From contig NZ_RBCI01000004.1 of assembly GCF_003628535.1 (NCBI RefSeq), forward strand, positions 62,001 through 126,000: a DNA stretch of 64,000 bases, written 5' to 3'. The stretch is from Flavisolibacter nicotianae. GTDB lineage: Bacteria; Bacteroidota; Bacteroidia; Chitinophagales; Chitinophagaceae. The notes under the pieces were generated by a model, which did not search any database, was not told the origin of the DNA, and worked only from the letters and a program-made list of their open reading frames with translations. The position numbers and the translations under genes are program-made. Shown here piece by piece: positions 20,825 to 30,754 of this stretch (position 1 is the stretch's first letter; each line of letters starts with the position of its first letter).

Positions 20825-20904
20825 TTGTAATTGTTTTTATAGTTAGGTTGTTCGCCTGCCGCGGCCTGACAGAAAAGATCTTTAAAGGCAAGCAATCATA
20901 GAGG

Positions 20905-20937
20905 GCTGTCCTGAAAACAGGGCAGCTTTTCTTTTTT
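20905..20937 (+). terminator. Rho-independent terminator after lipoprotein 3
   Basis: GCTGTCCTG at 20905-20913 pairs with CAGGGCAGC at 20918-20926 (one G-T pair) around an AAAA loop, followed by a T-rich tract to 20937. Confidence 0.85.
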
Positions 20938-21118: not shown

Positions 21119-22780
21119 ATGGCAACGTTTCGTGACCTTGGGCTGAATGAACAGCTTTTAACATCGATAGAAGAAATGGGCTTTACGCAGCCCACTAATA
21201 TACAGGAAAAGGCCATCCCGGTCTTGCTTTCCGGAACAAAAGACTTAGTAGGATTGGCCCAAACCGGAACAGGGAAAACGGCCGCTTTTGGCCTGCCGCT
21301 TCTGCAACTGGTAGATCCGGCAAAGAAATTTCCGCAGGCGCTGGTCATTTGTCCTACCCGCGAGCTGTGTATGCAGATCGTGAATGAAATTGAAAATTTC
21401 AACAAGCATTCGAAGGGCATTCACCTTGTTGCCGTCTATGGCGGCACGTCTATTTCTGCGCAGATCCGCGACATCCGGCGTGGCGTGCAGATCGTGGTGG
21501 CCACGCCAGGCCGCCTCATCGATCTGATTGAGCGGAAAGCAATTAACCTGGAAGAGATCAGCTATGTTGTGCTGGATGAGGCTGATGAAATGCTCAACAT
21601 GGGTTTTCAGGACGATATTGAAACCATTCTTAAAAATACTCCCAAACGCGAAAGCACCTGGCTGTTCAGTGCCACCATGCCGCCGGAAATCCGTAGTGTG
21701 AGCAAGCGGTACATGAAAGATCCTTTCGAAATCACCGTCGGAAAGAAGAACACCGCCAGTAAAAGCGTCGATCACCAATATGTCGTTACCCAGGCGCAGC
21801 ATCGTTACGAAGTCCTGAAACGCCTGATCGATTTCAACCCCGGCATGTACGGTATCATCTTTACCCGTACCAAGGCCGATGCCCAGGAGATCACCGAAAA
21901 ACTTACCCGCGAGGGATATGATATCGAAGCGCTGCACGGCGACCTCAGCCAGCAGCAGCGCAATAAAGTGATGGATGAATTCCGCGAAAAGACATTGCAG
22001 CTCCTGATCGCTACCGATGTGGCGGCCCGAGGCATCGACGTGCAGGGCATTACACACGTTATCAATTTTGAACTGCCGGATGACATTGAAGTTTATACGC
22101 ACAGAAGTGGCCGTACGGGTCGGGCCGGTAAAACGGGTGTCTGTATTTCCATCGTGCATTCAAGGGAAACAAGACGCATCCGCGACATTGAGCGCATCAC
22201 GCAGGTCCCTTTCCACAAACTGGAAGTACCCTCGGGAAAAGACGTTTGCCGGAAGCAGTTCTTTTACTTCATGGACAAACTTCTTTCTGCTGATATCAGC
22301 CATGGCGACTACGAAACCTATCTTCCCATGCTTTCGGAAAAGTTTGCCGAGGTCTCGAAAGAAGAAGTGCTCAAACGGGTGGCGGCTCTTGAATTTGACC
22401 GCTTCCTGAAATATTACGAAAATGCCGAAGACCTGAACATGCGGGAGCGGGAGCAACGCTTCGAAAGAAGGGACGATCGTTCCGGCGGCGACCGGCGGCG
22501 AGATACACGTGGCCGTGAGTTTAGCGGCGGCGGCAACATGACGCGTTTGTTTGTCAACATCGGTACGAAAGATGGTTTTTACAAAGCCAGCTTCCTGCAA
22601 TTCATCCTGGACATGAGCGACCTTCCGAAAGACGTTCTGGGTCGCATCGATATGAAGGAGATGAACAGTTGGATTGAAGTTGACAAGGACGCAGCCCGTA
22701 AAATGACACAGGCAATCGACGGCAAAAAATACAAGGGACGGCGAATCCGGATGAACGAAGCAGATTCGGTGAGAAGGTGA
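21119..22780 (+). CDS. DEAD-box ATP-dependent RNA helicase with DbpA-type RNA-binding domain
   Basis: A 553-residue DEAD-box helicase. The Q motif (GFTQPTNIQEKAIP), motif I AQTGTGKT, motif II DEAD, motif III SAT and motif VI HRSGRTGRAG are all present in order. A dimerisation-like segment is followed by a basic low-complexity linker (about 435-470, Arg/Asp/Gly-rich) and a C-terminal DbpA-type RNA-recognition domain (about 475-550, TRLFVNIGTKDGFYKASFL). This matches the CsdA/DeaD or DbpA-like group acting in ribosome assembly and cold adaptation. It has its own promoter candidate and no close operon partner. Confidence 0.93.
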   Translation: MATFRDLGLNEQLLTSIEEMGFTQPTNIQEKAIPVLLSGTKDLVGLAQTGTGKTAAFGLPLLQLVDPAKKFPQALVICPTRELCMQIVNEIENFNKHSKGIHLVAVYGGTSISAQIRDIRRGVQIVVATPGRLIDLIERKAINLEEISYVVLDEADEMLNMGFQDDIETILKNTPKRESTWLFSATMPPEIRSVSKRYMKDPFEITVGKKNTASKSVDHQYVVTQAQHRYEVLKRLIDFNPGMYGIIFTRTKADAQEITEKLTREGYDIEALHGDLSQQQRNKVMDEFREKTLQLLIATDVAARGIDVQGITHVINFELPDDIEVYTHRSGRTGRAGKTGVCISIVHSRETRRIRDIERITQVPFHKLEVPSGKDVCRKQFFYFMDKLLSADISHGDYETYLPMLSEKFAEVSKEEVLKRVAALEFDRFLKYYENAEDLNMREREQRFERRDDRSGGDRRRDTRGREFSGGGNMTRLFVNIGTKDGFYKASFLQFILDMSDLPKDVLGRIDMKEMNSWIEVDKDAARKMTQAIDGKKYKGRRIRMNEADSVRR

Positions 22781-22965: not shown

Positions 22966-22973
22966 TATATTTG
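22966..22973 (+). promoter_or_regulatory. Putative -7 box for the aromatic amino acid operon
   Basis: TATATTTG is an exact TAnnTTTG match. It ends 9 bases before the ATG of the Phe/Tyr leader peptide, so the transcript would start only three or four bases before the leader start codon. Confidence 0.55.
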
Positions 22974-22981
22974 TTGGCAGA

Positions 22982-23056
22982 ATGACAAACAACAAGGCAT
23001 ACCGTTACTTTTATTTTAGCTTTTATTTTACGAAAGGCCGGGATTGCTTTTGTTGA
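22982..23056 (+). CDS. Phe/Tyr-rich leader peptide of the aromatic amino acid operon
   Basis: A 24-codon frame (ATG at 22982, TGA at 23054-23056) whose core reads AYRYFYFSFYF: five Phe and four Tyr overall, nine of 24 residues. It lies directly after a perfect -7 box and 67 bases before pheA. It precedes an antiterminator/terminator pair. This is the layout of a classical attenuation leader such as pheL: scarcity of charged tRNA-Phe or tRNA-Tyr would stall the ribosome over codons 7-16 and permit read-through. The frame is open upstream to 22847, but the promoter position and composition favour 22982. The peptide itself probably has no function. Confidence 0.85.
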   Translation: MTNNKAYRYFYFSFYFTKGRDCFC

Positions 23057-23099
23057 TTATTACAGAAACAAAAAATTTCAACAAATAGAGATCCCGGCC
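23036..23099 (+). promoter_or_regulatory. Antiterminator pairing of the Phe/Tyr attenuator
   Basis: GGCCGGGAT at 23036-23044, inside the leader codons for Gly-Arg-Asp, is perfectly complementary to ATCCCGGCC at 23091-23099, which also contains the 5' arm of the terminator. The two structures exclude each other. A ribosome stalled on the aromatic codons leaves 23036-23044 free; one that reaches the stop codon covers it. Confidence 0.75.
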
Positions 23100-23115
23100 A
23101 AAAGCCGGGATTTTT
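23091..23115 (+). terminator. Attenuator terminator upstream of pheA
   Basis: ATCCCGGC at 23091-23098 pairs with GCCGGGAT at 23104-23111 around a CAAAA loop and is followed by TTTTTCATTTT. It ends about 9 bases before the pheA ATG, so as a constitutive terminator it would silence the operon; it makes sense only as a regulated one. Confidence 0.85.
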
Positions 23116-23123
23116 CATTTTAC

Positions 23124-23954
23124 ATGGCAAAGATTGTATCCATACAGGGCTTTGAAGGAAGTTTTCACCAGATTGCTGCCCGCCAGTTTTTCGGAAAAGA
23201 CATTGGCATTCTGCCCTGCGCCACCTTCCGCGAGGTGGTGGAAGCGACCAAAAAAGGAGAAACCGACGCCAGCGTGATGGCCATCGAAAACTCCATCGCC
23301 GGCAGCATCCTTGCGAATTATAACCTGCTTCACAAATCCAACCTGTCGATTGTCGGTGAAATTTATTTGCCCATCAAGCAGCATTTGCTTGTCAATCCGG
23401 GTGTGAGGCTGGAAGACATCAAAGAAGTACACTCGCATCCCATTGCGATCCTGCAATGCATGGACTACCTGGTAAAGTTCAACTGGAAACTGGTGGAAAC
23501 AGAAGACACGGCGTTGAGTGCAAAACACATTCACCAGCGGAAAAGCAAACACATTGCCGGCATCGCGGGTAAACTGGCAGCCGAACTTTTTCAACTGGAG
23601 ATCGCAGCGGAAAACATCCACACGGAAAAAAACAATTACACCAGATTTCTCATTTTACAAAAAACGGCCGTGGAAAGGGCCGACGCGGACAAAGCTTCCC
23701 TGTCGTTTCATACCGACCATTCCAGGGGAAGCCTGGCAAGGGTCCTGACAAAGATTGCCGATGGCGGTATCAACTTAAGCAAGCTGCAAAGCTTTCCCAT
23801 CCCCAGCAATGCATGGAAATACAACTTTCACGCCGACCTGGAATTTGACAGTATGGAGCAGTTCCACGCCGTGCTTCGGGAGATCGGGCCGGTAACGGAA
23901 GCAATCAAGGTTTACGGTGTTTATAAAAATGGTAATGCAAATTCATCCAAATGA
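23124..23954 (+). CDS. pheA: Prephenate dehydratase
   Basis: Converts prephenate to phenylpyruvate, the committed step to phenylalanine. The 276-residue protein has the periplasmic-binding-like catalytic domain with MAIENSIAGSI and the catalytic TRF motif (residues 173-175 in NNYTRFLIL). A C-terminal ACT domain (about 190-276) follows and would be the Phe-binding regulatory site. There is no chorismate mutase domain at the N-terminus; that activity is fused to the DAHP synthase encoded further along the operon. It is the first structural gene after the attenuator. Its end overlaps the aminotransferase start by 4 bases (ATGA). Confidence 0.95.
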   Translation: MAKIVSIQGFEGSFHQIAARQFFGKDIGILPCATFREVVEATKKGETDASVMAIENSIAGSILANYNLLHKSNLSIVGEIYLPIKQHLLVNPGVRLEDIKEVHSHPIAILQCMDYLVKFNWKLVETEDTALSAKHIHQRKSKHIAGIAGKLAAELFQLEIAAENIHTEKNNYTRFLILQKTAVERADADKASLSFHTDHSRGSLARVLTKIADGGINLSKLQSFPIPSNAWKYNFHADLEFDSMEQFHAVLREIGPVTEAIKVYGVYKNGNANSSK

Positions 23955-25123
23955 AAATTGAGATAGCAAACCGGTTAAACGGAATTGGCGAATATTACTT
24001 CTCGCAAAAGTTGCGGGAGATTGAAGGCCTGAACAAGCAGGGAGAAACGGTGATCAATCTTGGCATTGGCAGTCCCGACCTGGCTCCGGATGCCGCGGTT
24101 GTTGGCACGTTGCAGAACGAGAGCCGCAAACCCAACGTACATGCCTATCAAAGCTACAAAGGTGTGGCGGCGCTACGGAATTCTATTGCTGCCTGGTACC
24201 AAAAATGGTACGGCGTCACCTTGGATCCGGTTACAGAAGTGTTGCCCCTGATCGGCTCGAAAGAAGGCATTATGCATATTTGCATGACCTACCTGAACGA
24301 AGGGGATGAAGCACTCGTACCCAATCCGGGGTACCCGACCTACAGCAGCGCGGTGAAGCTCAGTGGGGGAAAGCCGGTGTACTATCACCTGAAAGAAGAA
24401 AACGAATGGGCGCCGGATTTCGATGCATTGGAAAAAATAGACCTTTCGAAAGTCAAACTGATGTGGGTAAACTACCCGCATATGCCGACAGGCCAGCAAG
24501 CGTCAAAAGAATTGTTTGAAAAACTCGTTGTGTTCGGGAAAAAACACCAGATCCTGATCTGTCACGACAATCCGTACAGCTTTATCCTGAATGATCACCC
24601 AATGAGTTTATTGGCCGTTGAAGGAGCCAAAGAAGTTGTCATCGAATTGAACTCACTCAGCAAGTCGCACAACATGGCCGGCTGGCGGGTGGGCATGCTT
24701 TGTGGTGCCAAAGAAAGAATTGACGAAGTATTGCGGTTTAAAAGCAACATGGACAGTGGTATGTACCTTCCCGTGCAACTGGCCGCTGCAAAGGCGCTCG
24801 AATTGAATGATGACTGGCATGATGCACTCAATGCGCAATACAAAAAACGTCGCGAAAAAGTATTTGAACTGCTGGACCTCCTGCAATGCCGGTTCAGCAA
24901 AGAGCAGGTCGGCATGTTCGTCTGGGCAAAAGTGCCGTCGAACTATAAAGACGGGTACGAATTGAGCGATGAGGTACTTTACAACGCACGGGTATTTATT
25001 ACACCGGGCGGTATTTTCGGAAGTGAAGGAAATGGCTATATCCGGATCAGCCTGTGCAGCACGGTCGAAAACCTGGATGCAGCCATTAACAGAATAAGAA
25101 TAAAAACTAAAGTCAACAAATAA
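23951..25123 (+). CDS. Aminotransferase class I/II (probable aromatic amino acid aminotransferase)
   Basis: A fold-type I PLP aminotransferase of 390 residues. Conserved elements are the substrate loop GIGSPDLAPD, NPGYPTY, the NYPHMPTG turn, the DNPY segment and the PLP lysine (Lys238 in SLSKSHNMAGWR). Position between pheA and tyrA suggests it transaminates phenylpyruvate and 4-hydroxyphenylpyruvate to Phe and Tyr; the sequence family also includes LL-diaminopimelate and aspartate aminotransferases, so specificity is inferred from context. It is translationally coupled to pheA by a 4-base overlap. Confidence 0.9.
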   Translation: MKIEIANRLNGIGEYYFSQKLREIEGLNKQGETVINLGIGSPDLAPDAAVVGTLQNESRKPNVHAYQSYKGVAALRNSIAAWYQKWYGVTLDPVTEVLPLIGSKEGIMHICMTYLNEGDEALVPNPGYPTYSSAVKLSGGKPVYYHLKEENEWAPDFDALEKIDLSKVKLMWVNYPHMPTGQQASKELFEKLVVFGKKHQILICHDNPYSFILNDHPMSLLAVEGAKEVVIELNSLSKSHNMAGWRVGMLCGAKERIDEVLRFKSNMDSGMYLPVQLAAAKALELNDDWHDALNAQYKKRREKVFELLDLLQCRFSKEQVGMFVWAKVPSNYKDGYELSDEVLYNARVFITPGGIFGSEGNGYIRISLCSTVENLDAAINRIRIKTKVNK

Positions 25124-25129
25124 ACACGG

Positions 25130-25969
25130 ATGGTTATCACAGTTGTTGGTGTCGGTTTGATTGGAGGCTCCATGGCAATTGCCCTGAAAGAAAAAGGCAT
25201 TGCCAGCAAAGTGATCGGTGTGGAGAGCAACCCCGCTCACCAGCAAAAAGCGCTGGAACTTGGATTGGTGGATGAAATCCTACCACTGGAGCAAGCCGTT
25301 GTTGCTTCTGACGTCATTATCCTGACAACTCCTGTCAACGCCTTGCAACAACTTGTACCGCTTGTTTTAGACCAGGTGCAAAACCAGGTGGTCATGGATG
25401 CCGGGTCGACGAAGAGCGGAATTTTAGAATTGATTAAAACGCACCCGAACAGAGGCCGCTTCGTTGCTACGCACCCGATGTGGGGAACTGAATACAGCGG
25501 GCCGGAGGCGGCCGTACAGGGAGCGTTTGTATCGAAGGCGACCGTTATCTGCAACAAGGAAGAAAGTGATGAAGACGCTGTGATACTCGTGGAGAAAATT
25601 TACAAGGAGTTGGGGATGCACCTCGTTTACATGAACGCAGTTGATCACGATGTGCATGTTGCCTATGTCAGCCATATTTCGCATATCACTTCCTTTGCCC
25701 TGGCCAACACCGTACTGGAAAAGGAAAAAGAGGAAGAAGCGATCTTCGAACTGGCCAGTGGTGGTTTTGAAAGCACGGTGCGCCTGGCAAAGAGCAACCC
25801 CGCCATGTGGGTACCTATTTTTAAAGAAAACCGCGATAATGTGTTGGATGTTTTAAATGAACACATCAGCCAGTTGCGAAAATTCAAGGCCTGTCTGGAA
25901 AAGGAAAATTATACCTACCTGACAGACCTGATCGAGCAAGCAAATAAAATCAGGAGAATAATTAAATAA
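25130..25969 (+). CDS. tyrA: Prephenate dehydrogenase
   Basis: Oxidatively decarboxylates prephenate to 4-hydroxyphenylpyruvate, the committed step to tyrosine. The 279-residue protein starts with the dinucleotide-binding motif VVGVGLIGGSMA, followed by TTPVNA, DAGSTKSGI, a substrate-binding ATHPMWGTE segment and the YVSHISHI helix that carries the catalytic histidine. It is a stand-alone NAD(P) enzyme with no mutase or ACT domain. The start lies 6 bases after the aminotransferase stop. Confidence 0.95.
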   Translation: MVITVVGVGLIGGSMAIALKEKGIASKVIGVESNPAHQQKALELGLVDEILPLEQAVVASDVIILTTPVNALQQLVPLVLDQVQNQVVMDAGSTKSGILELIKTHPNRGRFVATHPMWGTEYSGPEAAVQGAFVSKATVICNKEESDEDAVILVEKIYKELGMHLVYMNAVDHDVHVAYVSHISHITSFALANTVLEKEKEEEAIFELASGGFESTVRLAKSNPAMWVPIFKENRDNVLDVLNEHISQLRKFKACLEKENYTYLTDLIEQANKIRRIIK

Positions 25970-26076: not shown

Positions 26077-27162
26077 ATGCAACAGTTGAAAGACCAGAAA
26101 GCCGTATTGCAGGAAGTTTGGAAAAAACGTCCGCTGATTATTTCAGGCCCATGCAGCGCCGAAACGGAAGAACAGGTGCTGGAAACCGCCACCCGCCTGG
26201 CAAACACAGGTAAAGTAGACATGCTCAGGGCTGGTATTTGGAAACCGCGTACCCGTCCCGGAAGTTTTGAAGGCATTGGCACCAAAGGCTTACCCTGGCT
26301 GCTGCAAGCGAAAAAAATCACCGGCCTTCCCACGGCAGTGGAAGTGGCAACGGCCAAGCAGGTAGAAGATGCCTTACATTTTGACGTTGATGTTTTGTGG
26401 ATCGGCGCCAGAACAACCGTGAACCCATTCAGTGTGCAGGAAATTGCCGATGCCCTGAAAGGTGTTGATGTCCCTGTGCTGATCAAAAACCCGATCAACC
26501 CGGACCTGGAACTGTGGACCGGTGCGGTTGAACGCGTAGCCAAGGCCGGTATCAACCAAATCGGTCTCATTCACCGTGGATTTTCGTCGTATGGCAATAC
26601 CGAATACCGCAATGCACCGATGTGGCACCTGGCGATAGAAATGAAACGTCGCAACCCGGACATGCTCTTCATCAACGACCCGTCACACATTTGCGGTCGC
26701 CGTGATATTTTGCTTGATGTGGCGCAGGAAGCGATCAACCTCGATTTCGACGGCCTGATAATCGAAAGCCATATCGACCCAGACAAAGCCTGGAGCGATG
26801 CCAAACAGCAGGTGACACCCGAACGTCTTGCCGAAATGCTGGACCAAATTATCTGGCGCCGTGAAGACATTCCGTCGGAAGAACTGCACGCCGCTCTGGA
26901 AAAATTCCGCCAGCAGATCAATCAACTCGACGATGAACTGATGCTGTTGTTGTCGCAGCGGATGAAGGTGGCAGAAAAGATCGGCCAGTACAAAAAAGAT
27001 AACAACATCACCATCCTGCAAACAAAGCGCTGGAACGAGATTTTGGAGAGAGCCTGCAAGAAAGGCGACAAGATGGGATTGAGCAAAGAGTTTGTGACGA
27101 AATATCTTGATGCCGTTCACATGGAAAGCATCAATCACCAAAACAAAGTTTTTCACGGATAA
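26077..27162 (+). CDS. Bifunctional DAHP synthase / chorismate mutase
   Basis: A 361-residue fusion. Residues 1 to about 265 form a type I-beta (KDO8P-like) 3-deoxy-D-arabino-heptulosonate-7-phosphate synthase, with PLIISGPCSAET at the N-terminus, KPRTRPGSFEG and SHICGRRD. It condenses PEP and erythrose-4-phosphate at the entry to the shikimate pathway. Residues about 270-361 form an AroQ-type chorismate mutase (FRQQINQLDDELMLLLSQRM...). In this architecture the mutase domain usually doubles as the feedback sensor for prephenate or chorismate. This fusion supplies the mutase missing from PheA and TyrA. Its stop overlaps the aroB start (TAATG). Confidence 0.95.
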   Translation: MQQLKDQKAVLQEVWKKRPLIISGPCSAETEEQVLETATRLANTGKVDMLRAGIWKPRTRPGSFEGIGTKGLPWLLQAKKITGLPTAVEVATAKQVEDALHFDVDVLWIGARTTVNPFSVQEIADALKGVDVPVLIKNPINPDLELWTGAVERVAKAGINQIGLIHRGFSSYGNTEYRNAPMWHLAIEMKRRNPDMLFINDPSHICGRRDILLDVAQEAINLDFDGLIIESHIDPDKAWSDAKQQVTPERLAEMLDQIIWRREDIPSEELHAALEKFRQQINQLDDELMLLLSQRMKVAEKIGQYKKDNNITILQTKRWNEILERACKKGDKMGLSKEFVTKYLDAVHMESINHQNKVFHG

Positions 27163-28172
27163 TGCAGGTTAAAAAAGTCCAGTTCAGCAGGCAGGCGACG
27201 TCATTTTATTTTGACACGTCTTTTGCGCAGTTGAAAAAAATAGTTCCGCAGAAAACGACGGTTCTCCTTACCGATGAACACCTGGCGGCGGCCCATCCGC
27301 GAATTTTCAAAGGCTGGAATACCATCGTTCTGAAATCCGGTGAAGAATATAAGGTACAGGCAACGGTCGACAACATCATTCAGCAACTGATTGGGTTGCA
27401 GGCCGACCGCACCTGGACCTTGGTTGGCGTTGGCGGTGGCGTTGTGACTGATCTAACGGGTTATGTGGCCTCGATTTTTTTACGCGGCCTTGCGTTTGGC
27501 TTTGTGCCGACCACATTGTTGTCGATGGTCGACGCGGCCATTGGCGGCAAGAATGGGATTGATGTCGGCGTGTATAAGAACATGGTCGGCACCATCAGCC
27601 AGCCCGATTTTCTCCTGTACGATGTTTCATTGCTGAAAAGCCTTCCGGAAAATGAATGGCGAAACGGTTTTGCAGAAATCATCAAACACGGTGCTATCCT
27701 GGATGCGCCGATGGTGAAAGAGCTGGAAAAACGGAAGCTTTCTTTTTTTCAAAAAAACAAACCGGCGCTGCAAAAGCTGGTGCAGCGAAATGCCGCACTG
27801 AAAGCACGGGTCGTCAAAGAGGATGAATTTGAAAAGAACAAAAGGCGGCTGCTGAACTTCGGGCACACGCTGGGGCATGCGGTGGAGAAGCAGTACGAAT
27901 TCATGCATGGCGAAGCCGTGGCAATCGGGATGGTGTTTGCTGCAAAACTGTCGGCGGAAATGCTGAAGTTTAAAGGAACAGACAGGCTTGTTCACCTGAT
28001 AGATCAATATGGATTGCCGATAGCGGCGGGCTACAACAAACAAAAAGTATTTGACGTGCTGGTAAGCGATAAAAAACGGGAGGGGGAACTGATGAATTTT
28101 ATCCTCCTGGAAAAGCTTGGAAAAGCCGTCGTTAAAAAAATCCCCTTACCGGAAATTTACAAACTCATTTAA
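27162..28172 (+). CDS. aroB: 3-dehydroquinate synthase
   Basis: Cyclises DAHP to 3-dehydroquinate using NAD+ and a divalent metal. The 336-residue protein has GGGVVTDLTGYVAS, the FVPTTLLSMVDAAIGGKNGID signature and the metal-binding histidine segments FGHTLGHAVE and MHGEAVAIGM. Its N-terminal third is shorter than in enterobacterial AroB. It is coupled by 1-base TAATG overlaps to both the DAHP synthase and aroA. Confidence 0.96.
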   Translation: MQVKKVQFSRQATSFYFDTSFAQLKKIVPQKTTVLLTDEHLAAAHPRIFKGWNTIVLKSGEEYKVQATVDNIIQQLIGLQADRTWTLVGVGGGVVTDLTGYVASIFLRGLAFGFVPTTLLSMVDAAIGGKNGIDVGVYKNMVGTISQPDFLLYDVSLLKSLPENEWRNGFAEIIKHGAILDAPMVKELEKRKLSFFQKNKPALQKLVQRNAALKARVVKEDEFEKNKRRLLNFGHTLGHAVEKQYEFMHGEAVAIGMVFAAKLSAEMLKFKGTDRLVHLIDQYGLPIAAGYNKQKVFDVLVSDKKREGELMNFILLEKLGKAVVKKIPLPEIYKLI

Positions 28173-29458
28173 TGCAGGTAACAGTCACTCCTTCCAAAAT
28201 ACAGGGCACGATTACAGCACCCGCGTCCAAAAGTGCGATGCAGCGTGCCTGTGCAGCCTCTTTGCTCAAAGGCGGCGAGACGGTTTTGCACAATCCAGGC
28301 GTTTCAGACGATGACGAAGCGGCCCTTGATATCATTTATCAACTGGGCGCCATTGTTGAAAAAGAAAAGGATACAGTTGTCATCAGGAGCAATGGCGTGC
28401 AACCGATCAGCCAGGAGATCAACTGTGGAGAAAGTGGCCTTTCAGCCCGTATGTTCACGTCCGTTGCAGCCTTGAGTCAATCGCCGATCACAGTTACGGG
28501 AAAGGGCAGCCTCGTAAGGCGCCCGTTTTCGTTTTTCACGGATGTATTGCCACAACTCGGCGTTGACTGCACCAGCAACAACGGTTTGCTGCCGCTTCAG
28601 ATCAAAGGTCCGTTGCAACCACGGGATATCACGATCGACGGTTCACTTTCGTCGCAATTCCTGACAGGTTTGCTGTTTGCCTTTTCAGCCGCAAAGGCAA
28701 AGGATGTTACAATCACTGTTCACAACCTGAACAGCAAGCCCTATATCGATCTTACGCTGCAGGTGATGAGCAAATTTGGTTTGCCTGTTCCTGTCAACAA
28801 CGACTACCAATCGTTTTACTTTCCGAAAGATCCTTCGCCGGTTGCCTCTACACCTTCGTCGTTCAAGTACCAGGTGGAAGGTGATTGGAGCGGGGGCGCT
28901 TTTCTTTTGGTAGCCGGCGCCATTGCCGGCGATATCGTTGTAAAAGGACTGGATGTTTTTTCCACGCAGGCCGATAAGGCTGTGCTGCATGCGTTGATGC
29001 AGAGCGGTGCAACAATCAGCATTGAAGAAAGTAAAATAGAAGTACGGAAAAGCCGGCTGAAAGCATTTCACTTCAATGCAACTGACTGCCCGGATCTTTT
29101 TCCGCCGCTTGTTGCACTTGCCGCTTATTGCGACGGGACGACAGTGATCGAAGGGGTGCATCGACTGACCCACAAGGAAAGCAACAGGGCGCTGACCCTG
29201 CAGCAAGAGTTTGCAAAAATGGGAGTGGAGATTTCCTTCCAGGATGACATGATGCTTGTCCGCGGTGGAGCAGGAGTTAGCGGTGCAGCCGTCCATTCCC
29301 GCCACGACCACCGGATCGCCATGGCTTGCGCAGTGGCAGCACTGGGCGCCAGCGGCGATGTAATCATCGAAGAAGCCGAAGCGGTGAATAAATCGTATCC
29401 GCAGTTTTGGGATCACATTGAACATTTATCAGCCACCCTAACGACAAGCAAGCAATAA
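28172..29458 (+). CDS. aroA: 3-phosphoshikimate 1-carboxyvinyltransferase (EPSP synthase)
   Basis: Transfers enolpyruvate from PEP to shikimate-3-phosphate. The 428-residue protein has the N-terminal lysine region PASKSAMQRACAA, NCGESGLSARMF, SSQFLTGLLFA and the C-terminal segment HDHRIAMACAVAALG, all typical of EPSP synthases. The short NCGESGLSARMF (in place of LGNAGT) is the variant common in Bacteroidota and is of the divergent, glyphosate-insensitive-like type; that last point is inference. It is coupled to aroB by a TAATG overlap. Confidence 0.95.
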   Translation: MQVTVTPSKIQGTITAPASKSAMQRACAASLLKGGETVLHNPGVSDDDEAALDIIYQLGAIVEKEKDTVVIRSNGVQPISQEINCGESGLSARMFTSVAALSQSPITVTGKGSLVRRPFSFFTDVLPQLGVDCTSNNGLLPLQIKGPLQPRDITIDGSLSSQFLTGLLFAFSAAKAKDVTITVHNLNSKPYIDLTLQVMSKFGLPVPVNNDYQSFYFPKDPSPVASTPSSFKYQVEGDWSGGAFLLVAGAIAGDIVVKGLDVFSTQADKAVLHALMQSGATISIEESKIEVRKSRLKAFHFNATDCPDLFPPLVALAAYCDGTTVIEGVHRLTHKESNRALTLQQEFAKMGVEISFQDDMMLVRGGAGVSGAAVHSRHDHRIAMACAVAALGASGDVIIEEAEAVNKSYPQFWDHIEHLSATLTTSKQ

Positions 29459-29459
29459 C

Positions 29460-30452
29460 ATGAATGCATTTGGACGCCTATTCCGGGTCAGTATTTTTGG
29501 AGAATCACATGGACCGTCTGTTGGCATAACGATCGATGGCTGTCCTGCGGGACTGCCGCTAAACGAAGAAGATTTTACCGTTGACATTGAACGTCGCAAG
29601 GGCGGCCAGCAGAAAGGCACAACGCCACGAAAGGAAGACGACAAACCGATTTTCCTGACCGGGGTGTTCAACGGTAAAACAACCGGCGCCCCGTTGACAA
29701 TCGTCTTCGAAAACAAGAATACACGGTCTGGTGATTACGAAAAACAAAGAGCTTTTCCCCGTCCCGGTCATGCGGATTTTGTAGCGCACCAAAAGTTCGG
29801 CGGATTTGAGGATTTCCGCGGTGGCGGCCATTTCAGCGGACGGCTTACTGTCTGTCTCGTTGGCGCCGGTGTGGTTGCAAAAAAACTGCTGCAAACAATT
29901 TCCGTCCAATCCACCATTTTGGAAATCGGCGGCGAAAAAGATATCGAGGCCGGCTTGCAAAAAGCGATTGACGCCAAGGATTCTGTCGGAGGTATCGTTG
30001 AATGCCGCGTAAATGGTTTGCCGGCCGGATTGGGCGAGCCTTTTTTCGACTCCCTCGAATCGGTTTTAGCACATGCGGTGTTTGCCATTCCGGCCGTAAG
30101 AGGAATTGAATTCGGAACCGGTTTTGCAGCCGCCCGCATGTTTGGTGTCGATCATAACGACGCCATTCTCGACCAAACCGGGAGAACGAAAACAAACCAT
30201 GCCGGTGGTGTTGTTGGAGGGATCAGCAACGGTAACGAGCTTGTTTTTCGCATCGCCATCAAACCCACATCGTCGACACCGAAGGAACAGCAAACCTGGA
30301 ATTGGGAAAACGGCCAGGTAGAAACATTTTCCGTCAAGGGCCGCCACGATCTTTGCATCGCCCTGCGGGTTCCACCGGTATTGGAAGCAGTGGCGGCAAT
30401 CGTGCTCGCCGATTTCCTGCTGCTGGAACACCACATTAAACGCACCTGCTAA
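29460..30452 (+). CDS. aroC: Chorismate synthase
   Basis: Makes chorismate from EPSP by an FMN-dependent 1,4-elimination, the last shared step of the pathway. The 330-residue protein has the N-terminal FGESHGPSVGITIDGCP signature (residues 13-29), the central RPGHADF, FRGGGHFSGR segment and the C-terminal KGRHDLCIALRVPPVLEA signature. Length is slightly shorter than the typical 350-360, with trimmed internal loops. Its stop overlaps the next start (TAATG). Confidence 0.96.
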   Translation: MNAFGRLFRVSIFGESHGPSVGITIDGCPAGLPLNEEDFTVDIERRKGGQQKGTTPRKEDDKPIFLTGVFNGKTTGAPLTIVFENKNTRSGDYEKQRAFPRPGHADFVAHQKFGGFEDFRGGGHFSGRLTVCLVGAGVVAKKLLQTISVQSTILEIGGEKDIEAGLQKAIDAKDSVGGIVECRVNGLPAGLGEPFFDSLESVLAHAVFAIPAVRGIEFGTGFAAARMFGVDHNDAILDQTGRTKTNHAGGVVGGISNGNELVFRIAIKPTSSTPKEQQTWNWENGQVETFSVKGRHDLCIALRVPPVLEAVAAIVLADFLLLEHHIKRTC

Positions 30453-30754
30453 TGCATACACATACCATCAACGCATCCATTCAGCTTCTGCCGATCGTGG
30501 AAGACAGGCACCCTTATGACTGGGTGGACGAAGCGATTGCCGTTATCCAGAAGTCGGGTATTCAGCACGAGGTTGGGCCATTTGCCACTGTTGTGGAAGG
30601 CAGTTACGAAGCCGTCATGCAAGTCATTCACCAAATCAACGAACACCTGGCCAGCCGTGGATGCACGGAATGGATCACCAGTGTTCAACTGCAAATTCGC
30701 AGCAACAGTCCCATTACGTCTTTAGAAAAGACGGAGAAGTTTCACCAAAAATAA
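30452..30754 (+). CDS. Thiamine-binding protein (YqgV/MTH1187 family)
   Basis: A 100-residue protein of the DUF77 family, a ferredoxin-like fold whose members bind thiamine. ASIQLLPI at the start and the HEVGPFATVVEGSYEAVMQVI stretch match the family. It is translationally coupled to aroC with a 1-base overlap and is the last gene of the aromatic operon. There is no obvious biochemical link to the shikimate pathway, so it may simply ride along. Confidence 0.85.
   Translation: MHTHTINASIQLLPIVEDRHPYDWVDEAIAVIQKSGIQHEVGPFATVVEGSYEAVMQVIHQINEHLASRGCTEWITSVQLQIRSNSPITSLEKTEKFHQK

Follow-up and report, generated by a model that had tools for sequence, protein, structure and literature searches.

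A probable ribosome-mediated attenuator with mixed Phe and Tyr codons upstream of a pheA-led aromatic amino acid operon in a member of the Bacteroidota

Introduction

Leader-peptide attenuation is textbook biology in enteric bacteria. In the pheL-pheA system of E. coli a Phe-rich leader peptide precedes pheA, and is accompanied by a terminator, a competing antiterminator and a protector hairpin.

In Bacteroidota this kind of regulation has been little examined. According to passages of PMC9723704, flavobacterial members of the phylum have no Shine-Dalgarno sequences, and the promoters of the phylum differ. The same passages describe a structured 5' element of Flavobacterium psychrophilum pheA, which is kept in other genera of the Flavobacteriaceae and has no Rfam hits, and report strong indications that amino-acid operons are attenuated through leader peptides. 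For Bacteroides thetaiotaomicron, Table 7 of PMC1173090 gives a putative attenuator before pheA>hisHb>aroAIb-aroQ>tyrA, taken from the Merino database. In the literature that we searched, which was mostly non-subscription, we found no description of the leader peptide, the pairing arms or their covariation in Bacteroidota (the comparative study of Lopatovskaya et al. 2010, cited in PMC4833913, may list Bacteroidetes cases), and no laboratory test, Phe/Tyr response or RNA ends for the leader analysed here.

Here we analyse the region upstream of pheA in a 64,000-nucleotide stretch of Flavisolibacter nicotianae DNA (the window), in which an earlier note, made from the sequence alone, had proposed a Phe/Tyr attenuator.

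Results

The operon and its leader open reading frame

The genes downstream of the element are:

23124..23954, + strand: pheA, prephenate dehydratase, first gene of the operon, ATG at 23124 (top NCBIfam match prephenate dehydratase, 201 bits, under the cut-off of 219)
23951..25123, + strand: aminotransferase, overlapping pheA by 4 bp (best NCBIfam matches LL-diaminopimelate aminotransferase models, all listed ones under cut-off)
25130..25969, + strand: tyrA, prephenate dehydrogenase (NCBIfam 370 bits, cut-off 295)
26077..27162, + strand: DAHP synthase fused to chorismate mutase (NCBIfam matches under cut-off)
27162..28172, + strand: aroB (NCBIfam 323.8 bits, cut-off 305)
28172..29458, + strand: aroA (NCBIfam 341.4 bits, cut-off 287)
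29460..30452, + strand: aroC (NCBIfam 372.1 bits, cut-off 321)

These matches, some of them under cut-off, agree with the initial description of an operon that comprises both branches plus DAHP synthase, aroB, aroA and aroC. We infer that the genes from pheA through the aminotransferase, tyrA, DAHP synthase/chorismate mutase, aroB and aroA to aroC are co-transcribed; most of them overlap or abut, and the gap between tyrA and the DAHP synthase-chorismate mutase gene is 107 bp. A small gene at 30452-30754, which resembles the MTH1187 family (thiamine-binding family, under cut-off), shares one base with the end of aroC and is possibly a further member of the operon. Farther upstream, about 190 nt before a DEAD-box helicase gene at 21119, there is a strong terminator-like hairpin at 20901-20930 (13 pairs, T-run), which may be the end of the preceding transcript or a second attenuator.

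The coding part of the element consists of:

22982..23056, + strand: leader ORF encoding MTNNKAYRYFYFSFYFTKGRDCFC, 24 amino acids with 5 Phe and 4 Tyr, ATG at 22982, TGA at 23054-23056
23000-23002 and 23006-23029, + strand: predicted control codons within the leader ORF

Both the coordinates and the Phe and Tyr counts of this 24-codon frame had been given correctly in the earlier note. For comparison, a PheA protein search of named species genomes yielded at least 579 relatives, from which the best 80 loci were used and, with the window, made a set of 81 sequences. Owing to this selection the set consists of close kin, with PheA proteins 60-75% identical, most of the records being titled as Chitinophagaceae or as unplaced Bacteroidota. 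Each of the 81 sequences has, upstream of pheA, a short frame crowded with Phe and Tyr codons. The densest stretch of 14 residues contains between 6 and 11 Phe/Tyr, with at least 7 in 80 of the 81, a density reached by 21 of 1620 shuffles and by 3 of 81 reverse strands. A chance origin was considered and rejected, since the controls were far below the real sequences, both for the aromatic frame (shuffles and reverse strands) and for the antiterminator and the terminator described below (shuffles).

The occurrence of both residues in 80 of the 81 leaders, with as many as 289 Tyr in 2215 residues, and the fact that the operon serves both products make it unlikely that the leader senses mainly Phe, with the Tyr codons as tolerated neighbours or structural elements. 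That alternative draws some weight from the predominance of Phe (475 residues over the 81 leaders), from one leader (L061) that has no Tyr codon and from a structure formed by the last aromatic codons:

23019..23038, + strand: small AU-rich hairpin (23019-23024 with 23033-23038), nested in the protector hairpin described below

In the relatives (72 of 79 usable) this hairpin has a mean folding energy of -3.5 kcal/mol; synonymous variants have -1.2, and 12% of them surpass the real sequence. It could be a pause hairpin or an aid to nucleate the protector helix.

Trp contributes 25 residues to the 81 leaders. A Trp codon is present in 24 of them, e.g. in L065, L067-L075 and L079-L081 (an example is MKANSNWFYFFFYFYF), and in L045 and L063 it lies outside the aromatic run. 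Among the 46 sequences used below for the antiterminator 6 leaders have Trp, and the PheA tree requires at least 5 switches between presence and absence of Trp. Possibly all three aromatic acids are sensed where the operon also feeds chorismate to Trp.

A promoter box close to the leader start codon

22966..22973, + strand: TATATTTG, -7 box of the Bacteroidota primary sigma factor, consensus TAnnTTTG

The box had been pointed out before, and direct reading of the sequence confirms it. Passages of PMC9723704 give the TAnnTTTG consensus and place the box at -12 to -5. Judged by the box spacing alone, transcription would start at about 22978, so that about 4 nt of 5' UTR would precede the leader ATG. 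In 60 of the 81 sequences a strict TAnnTTTG match has its end 3-14 nt upstream of the leader start codon, against 1.5 expected from shuffles. The gap between box and ATG is 4-10 nt in 57 of 81 sequences with the strict and in 73 of 81 with a relaxed pattern, 7 nt being the commonest value; with a box at -12 to -5 these gaps predict 5' UTRs of 0-6 nt. As background, about 3.7% of the 5' UTRs of B. thetaiotaomicron are shorter than 10 nt (passages of PMC7366714) and 5.5% of the mRNAs of F. psychrophilum are leaderless (passages of PMC9723704). In some leaders of the class from outside the window's family (e.g. L127, L136 and L140) the box is 17-18 nt from the ATG, thus the predicted near-leaderless start holds for the family and not for the class. 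The mixed codons and the predicted near-leaderless start had been singled out as unusual points, but they are the norm for the clade and not peculiar to this genome.

Terminator and antiterminator share a segment

23036..23056, + strand: segment 2, 5' arm of the antiterminator, overlapping the end of the leader ORF, stop codon included; GGCCGGGAT at 23036-23044
23078..23099, + strand: segment 3, 3' arm of the antiterminator, of which 23087-23098 doubles as the 5' arm of the terminator; ATCCCGGCC at 23091-23099
23104..23115, + strand: segment 4, 3' arm of the terminator, T-run 23111-23115; GCCGGGAT at 23104-23111

These three stretches were read directly from the sequence. An intrinsic terminator with a 12-bp stem (23087-23098:23104-23115) lies between the leader ORF and pheA. 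Its folding energy in the window is -18.3 kcal/mol (z -6.2), none of 200 dinucleotide shuffles being as good, and its tail is short (5 T). The competing antiterminator has 20 bp (23036-23045:23090-23099, 23047-23048:23087-23088 and 23049-23056:23078-23085) and an energy of -28.9 kcal/mol (z -7.9), again with none of 200 dinucleotide shuffles as good. For both helices the arms first proposed (23036-23044 with 23091-23099, and 23091-23098 with 23104-23111 plus T-run) proved right in position, the folds extending the antiterminator from 9 to 20 bp and the terminator stem to 12 bp. The fold of the full leader combines pairing of segments 1:2 with 3:4 (-33.7, z -3.7, 200 dinucleotide shuffles). As the antiterminator is far stronger in the window than 1:2 (-15.2) or 3:4 (-18.3), full termination would need kinetic ordering or cover by the ribosome.

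Both helices are kept in the relatives, which supports the idea that terminator and antiterminator exclude each other through a common segment. A terminator was found 3' of the leader in 79 of the 81 sequences, the two without one by the criterion used being L066 and L077. Segments 2 and 3 form at least 5 pairs in 77 of the 79; L064 has 4 pairs, and L027 was counted among the two exceptions because the scanned segment began too late. RNAalifold on the 79 sequences gave 9 terminator pairs, 5 of them with changes on both sides. In this alignment segment 2 of different lineages is out of register, therefore the antiterminator pairs were counted on 46 sequences with a TGTT-like inner stem, picked by eye from the larger alignment; among the 33 omitted is L038, which resembles L008 and L011. 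The consensus antiterminator of the 46 has 18 pairs in three helices, with 85.4% of the cells paired against 82.0 +/- 0.5 in shuffles. Its covariation score is 0.160, compared with 0.104 +/- 0.008 for shuffles, none of 500 of which reach it, and with 0.019-0.079 for slid partners. Coarser counts are weaker: 9 both-side changes (reached by 20 of 500 shuffles) and 22 further pair types (34 of 500). Mapped on the PheA tree, the antiterminator of the 46 sequences requires at least 23 Watson-Crick double changes versus 5-15 for the slid controls, which also hold far fewer paired cells (175-330 versus 662).

Exchange of arms between genomes pointed the same way. The 2:3 arms of the same genome pair with -14.0 as against -12.4 when swapped, and in 67 of 79 sequences the own arms outdo the mean of the swapped ones, some arms being clipped in this comparison by a 12-nt cut. 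Thirty sequences have an unusual segment 3; in 16 of these the own arm is preferred over at least 45 of 49 consensus partners, and in 7 it beats at most one of them. The segment 2 core falls in leader frames 1, 0 and 2 in 33, 24 and 5 of the 79 sequences (17 unscored). Conservation of the core while its reading frame shifts argues that at this place the RNA and not the peptide is under selection.

This shift of frame in the C-terminal part, and the fact that the relatives share mainly the aromatic run, also bear on the possibility that the leader, either as terminated RNA or as hydrophobic peptide, has a further function in trans, as has been reported for rnTrpL and peTrpL of Sinorhizobium meliloti. 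The layout of the product is alike, a near-leaderless small mRNA ending at the attenuator terminator (passages of PMC7298713), but in view of the poorly shared peptide we consider a function in trans quite improbable. Even less credit is due to the idea that pheA is simply preceded by a constitutive terminator, or by a gene for a small non-coding RNA, and that the Phe/Tyr frame is incidental. A good terminator is indeed present, and the full-length fold prefers the terminator form in the window and in 71 of 79 relatives; a plain terminator, however, needs no covariation between segments 2 and 3, yet such covariation was seen, and in 80 of the 81 regions the density of Phe and Tyr codons greatly exceeds chance. 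A ribosome-independent RNA sensor (T-box or riboswitch) can be dismissed with still more confidence: mutually exclusive terminator and antiterminator structures are a hallmark of those systems too, but every Rfam family stays below its gathering score throughout the window, cognate codons crowd the leader, and the RNA is short, with about 140 nt. Among Rfam families with E up to 1 there was no T-box match in the element, nor was there one at the gathering threshold in the window; a weak SAM-II match (E up to 1) lies on the opposite strand of the element.

A likely protector hairpin

22990..23004, + strand: segment 1, protector arm in the N-terminal codons of the leader, pairing with 23039-23055

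In the window, 22990-22999 pairs with 23045-23055 and 23002-23004 with 23039-23041. The fold of this 5' region (22978-23058) has an energy of -15.2 kcal/mol with z -2.0, 8 of 200 dinucleotide shuffles being as good. When the relatives were folded from the start to segment 2, the first codons paired in most genomes with the second half of segment 2, for instance CAACAAAAGCA with TGCTTTTGTTG in one lineage and, in a second lineage, GCAAATAC with GTATTTGC. Segment 1 pairs with its own segment 2 at -14.5 kcal/mol versus -11.9 with the segment 2 of other genomes; in 70 of 79 sequences the own pairing is the stronger one. A shuffled segment 2 gives -7.4, and the aromatic part of the leader in place of segment 1 gives -6.6. 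Own and crossed pairings are -15.4 and -10.3 in lineage A (46 sequences), and -13.0 and -10.6 in the other 32 sequences. Of synonymous variants of segment 1, on average 21% pair better than the real one.

It must be noted that the mean fold from the start to segment 2 does not exceed mononucleotide shuffles in stability (z -0.30), segment 2 being paired upstream in 60 of 79 sequences. That value seemed to agree with the absence of a protector hairpin, a view that was dropped in the light of the conserved 1:2 pairing and of the duplex, swap and synonymous controls. Within lineage A, where segment 2 is nearly invariant, covariation of 1:2 is not above shuffles (151 of 500 reach the score), and RNAalifold on the 1:2 region of the lineage A alignment gives no consensus structure. 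On these comparisons the protector helix is likely, and it is the least proven of the three helices.

With 1:2, which is less firm, the leader shows the full layout of the trp/phe type, i.e. 1:2, 2:3 and 3:4. The comparison of 81 sequences thus supports the core of the attenuator reading of the earlier note, which had missed the protector hairpin. Alignment with related genomes, which the same note had suggested as a check, revealed conservation of the aromatic frame and of the arms, and compensatory change in both terminator and antiterminator.

Proposed mechanism

We put the probability that the element is a ribosome-mediated transcription attenuator of the trp/phe type at about 0.92. The elements, their mutual exclusivity and their conservation were computed, those of 1:2 with less certainty; what we infer is where transcription starts, that the ribosome stalls, that termination takes place in vivo and that Phe and Tyr elicit a response. 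With a start about 4 nt before the leader ATG, the ribosome would load at the very 5' end and trail the polymerase. If charged Phe-tRNA or Tyr-tRNA were scarce, it would stall on the codons at 23006-23029, the earlier ones being the most effective. The stalled ribosome would mask segment 1 and leave segment 2 (23036-23056) free, 2:3 would form instead of the terminator, and the operon would be transcribed. When both charged tRNAs are ample, the ribosome would reach the UGA at 23054 and mask segment 2, allowing 3:4 to form and transcription to stop near 23115. In the absence of a ribosome 1:2 would form first, segment 2 would be unavailable, and termination would follow. A ribosome covers about 15 nt on each side of its P site; with such a footprint, stalls at 23006-23020 would sit over segment 1, and a ribosome at the stop codon would sit over segment 2.

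Occurrence in the phylum

The range of the leader was surveyed in the pheA-upstream regions of 40 out of 119 genomes with a match, a leader being defined by at least 7 Phe/Tyr/Trp per 14 residues. Aromatic leaders occur in 23 of the 27 sampled genomes of the class Bacteroidia (the leader of L121 is atypical), including five other families, and are absent upstream of pheA in the other 4; none was found in the 13 sampled genomes from the other classes of the phylum (5 per 14 at most). Of the 19 class leaders from outside the window's family, 18 have a terminator on the 3' side (L134 does not by the criterion used), and most have a competing fold, in sequences of their own.

A covariance model of segments 2-4 picks out the pheA site in the window's own genome with E 6e-14, the next match having E 0.035. 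Across the phylum 92 of 296 genomes have a match at E <= 0.1, and the model locates the element in other families. We examined 30 loci (best hits, one per genome, including the window), of which 21 are before pheA and 1 before DAHP synthase; the leader peptide of one, L090, is identical to that of the training locus L004. Eight of the 30 have no queried aro gene downstream and two of these eight, L100 and L107, show His-rich frames, indicating that the weak hits of the model are not all Phe elements. In L111, from another class of the phylum, a Trp-holding aromatic leader (MPMINLKKATTTSFYFYWFYFTGRGWLL) and a model hit are found before a DAHP synthase-chorismate mutase gene and not before pheA.

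Sister leaders for other amino acids

In up to 20 genomes of the window's family we looked for leaders of other amino-acid operons, using thresholds set after an earlier look at the data. His-rich leaders were found upstream of hisG in 14 of 16 loci, Trp-rich leaders upstream of trpE in 14 of 15, Thr/Ile-rich leaders upstream of an aspartokinase-type gene in 12 of 14 (the best 14 of 30 loci) and Ile/Leu/Val-rich leaders upstream of ilvD in 6 of 14 (the 14 over cut-off, of 20 loci). A -7-like box lies 4-10 nt before the start in 10 of 14 His leaders and in 5 of 14 Trp leaders (regular box pattern). Other contigs of the window's own genome (L174, L178 and L221) carry a His leader MNKTVHTHHHALPAR upstream of hisG, a Trp leader MKSINNKFWWWHTNADRGSV upstream of trpE and a Thr leader MATQSTTNTITTIR with GTG start upstream of an aspartokinase-type gene. 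The His leader of this genome has a terminator downstream, and no Ilv leader was seen upstream of its ilvD.

Discussion

A more general proposal, which we put forward tentatively and regard as rather doubtful at present, is that attenuators of this kind, throughout the Bacteroidia, integrate two or three aromatic acids for a near-complete aromatic operon, with a near-leaderless start in place of Shine-Dalgarno loading: the 5'-terminal AUG would load the ribosome as the RNA emerges, and the first codons would double as the protector strand. If this is true, ribosome-polymerase synchrony would be set by loading at the 5' end, and, as many His and some Trp leaders of the family share the layout, it would be the usual form of amino-acid control in these bacteria. 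The covarying pheA element and the His, Trp, Thr and some Ilv leaders provide a ready sequence set for studying translation-coupled attenuation in Bacteroidota, for example whether near-leaderless initiation serves as a timer and whether Phe, Tyr and Trp can be read by a single switch, and the covariance model supplies a family model where no Rfam family passed the threshold.

A close counterpart is the enteric pheA attenuator (RF01859 Phe_leader; E. coli pheL-pheA), which has the same set of leader peptide, terminator, antiterminator and protector hairpin. Alignment of the RF01859 model to 22994-23118 runs over its whole length and in the right orientation; its score of 21.5 bits compares with a gathering score of 55, and by score the element is not a member of that family. 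In contrast to the enteric attenuator, the element described here combines Phe with Tyr codons (in some relatives also with Trp), has a predicted near-leaderless start, and precedes an operon that covers both branches as well as a large part of the shikimate pathway.

Within the phylum, the F. psychrophilum element precedes the same gene; the passages of PMC9723704 that describe it contain no leader sequences, arms or covariation, which are given here. The B. thetaiotaomicron operon (passages of PMC1173090) likewise starts with pheA, serves both branches and includes a DAHP synthase-chorismate mutase fusion; its attenuator is a database prediction, and the leader peptide is not described in those passages. 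The leaderless trpL of S. meliloti (passages of PMC7298713) and leuL of Streptomyces lividans resemble the present leader in that the attenuator peptide is read from a 5'-terminal ATG. They come from other phyla and respond to other amino acids, and they have no 5' UTR, where one of about 4 nt is predicted for the present leader. Taken together, the kind of regulation is known, and the locus appears, on the sequence comparisons presented, to be a real and well-conserved case of it, in a phylum for which the available passages on F. psychrophilum and B. thetaiotaomicron had already hinted at such control.
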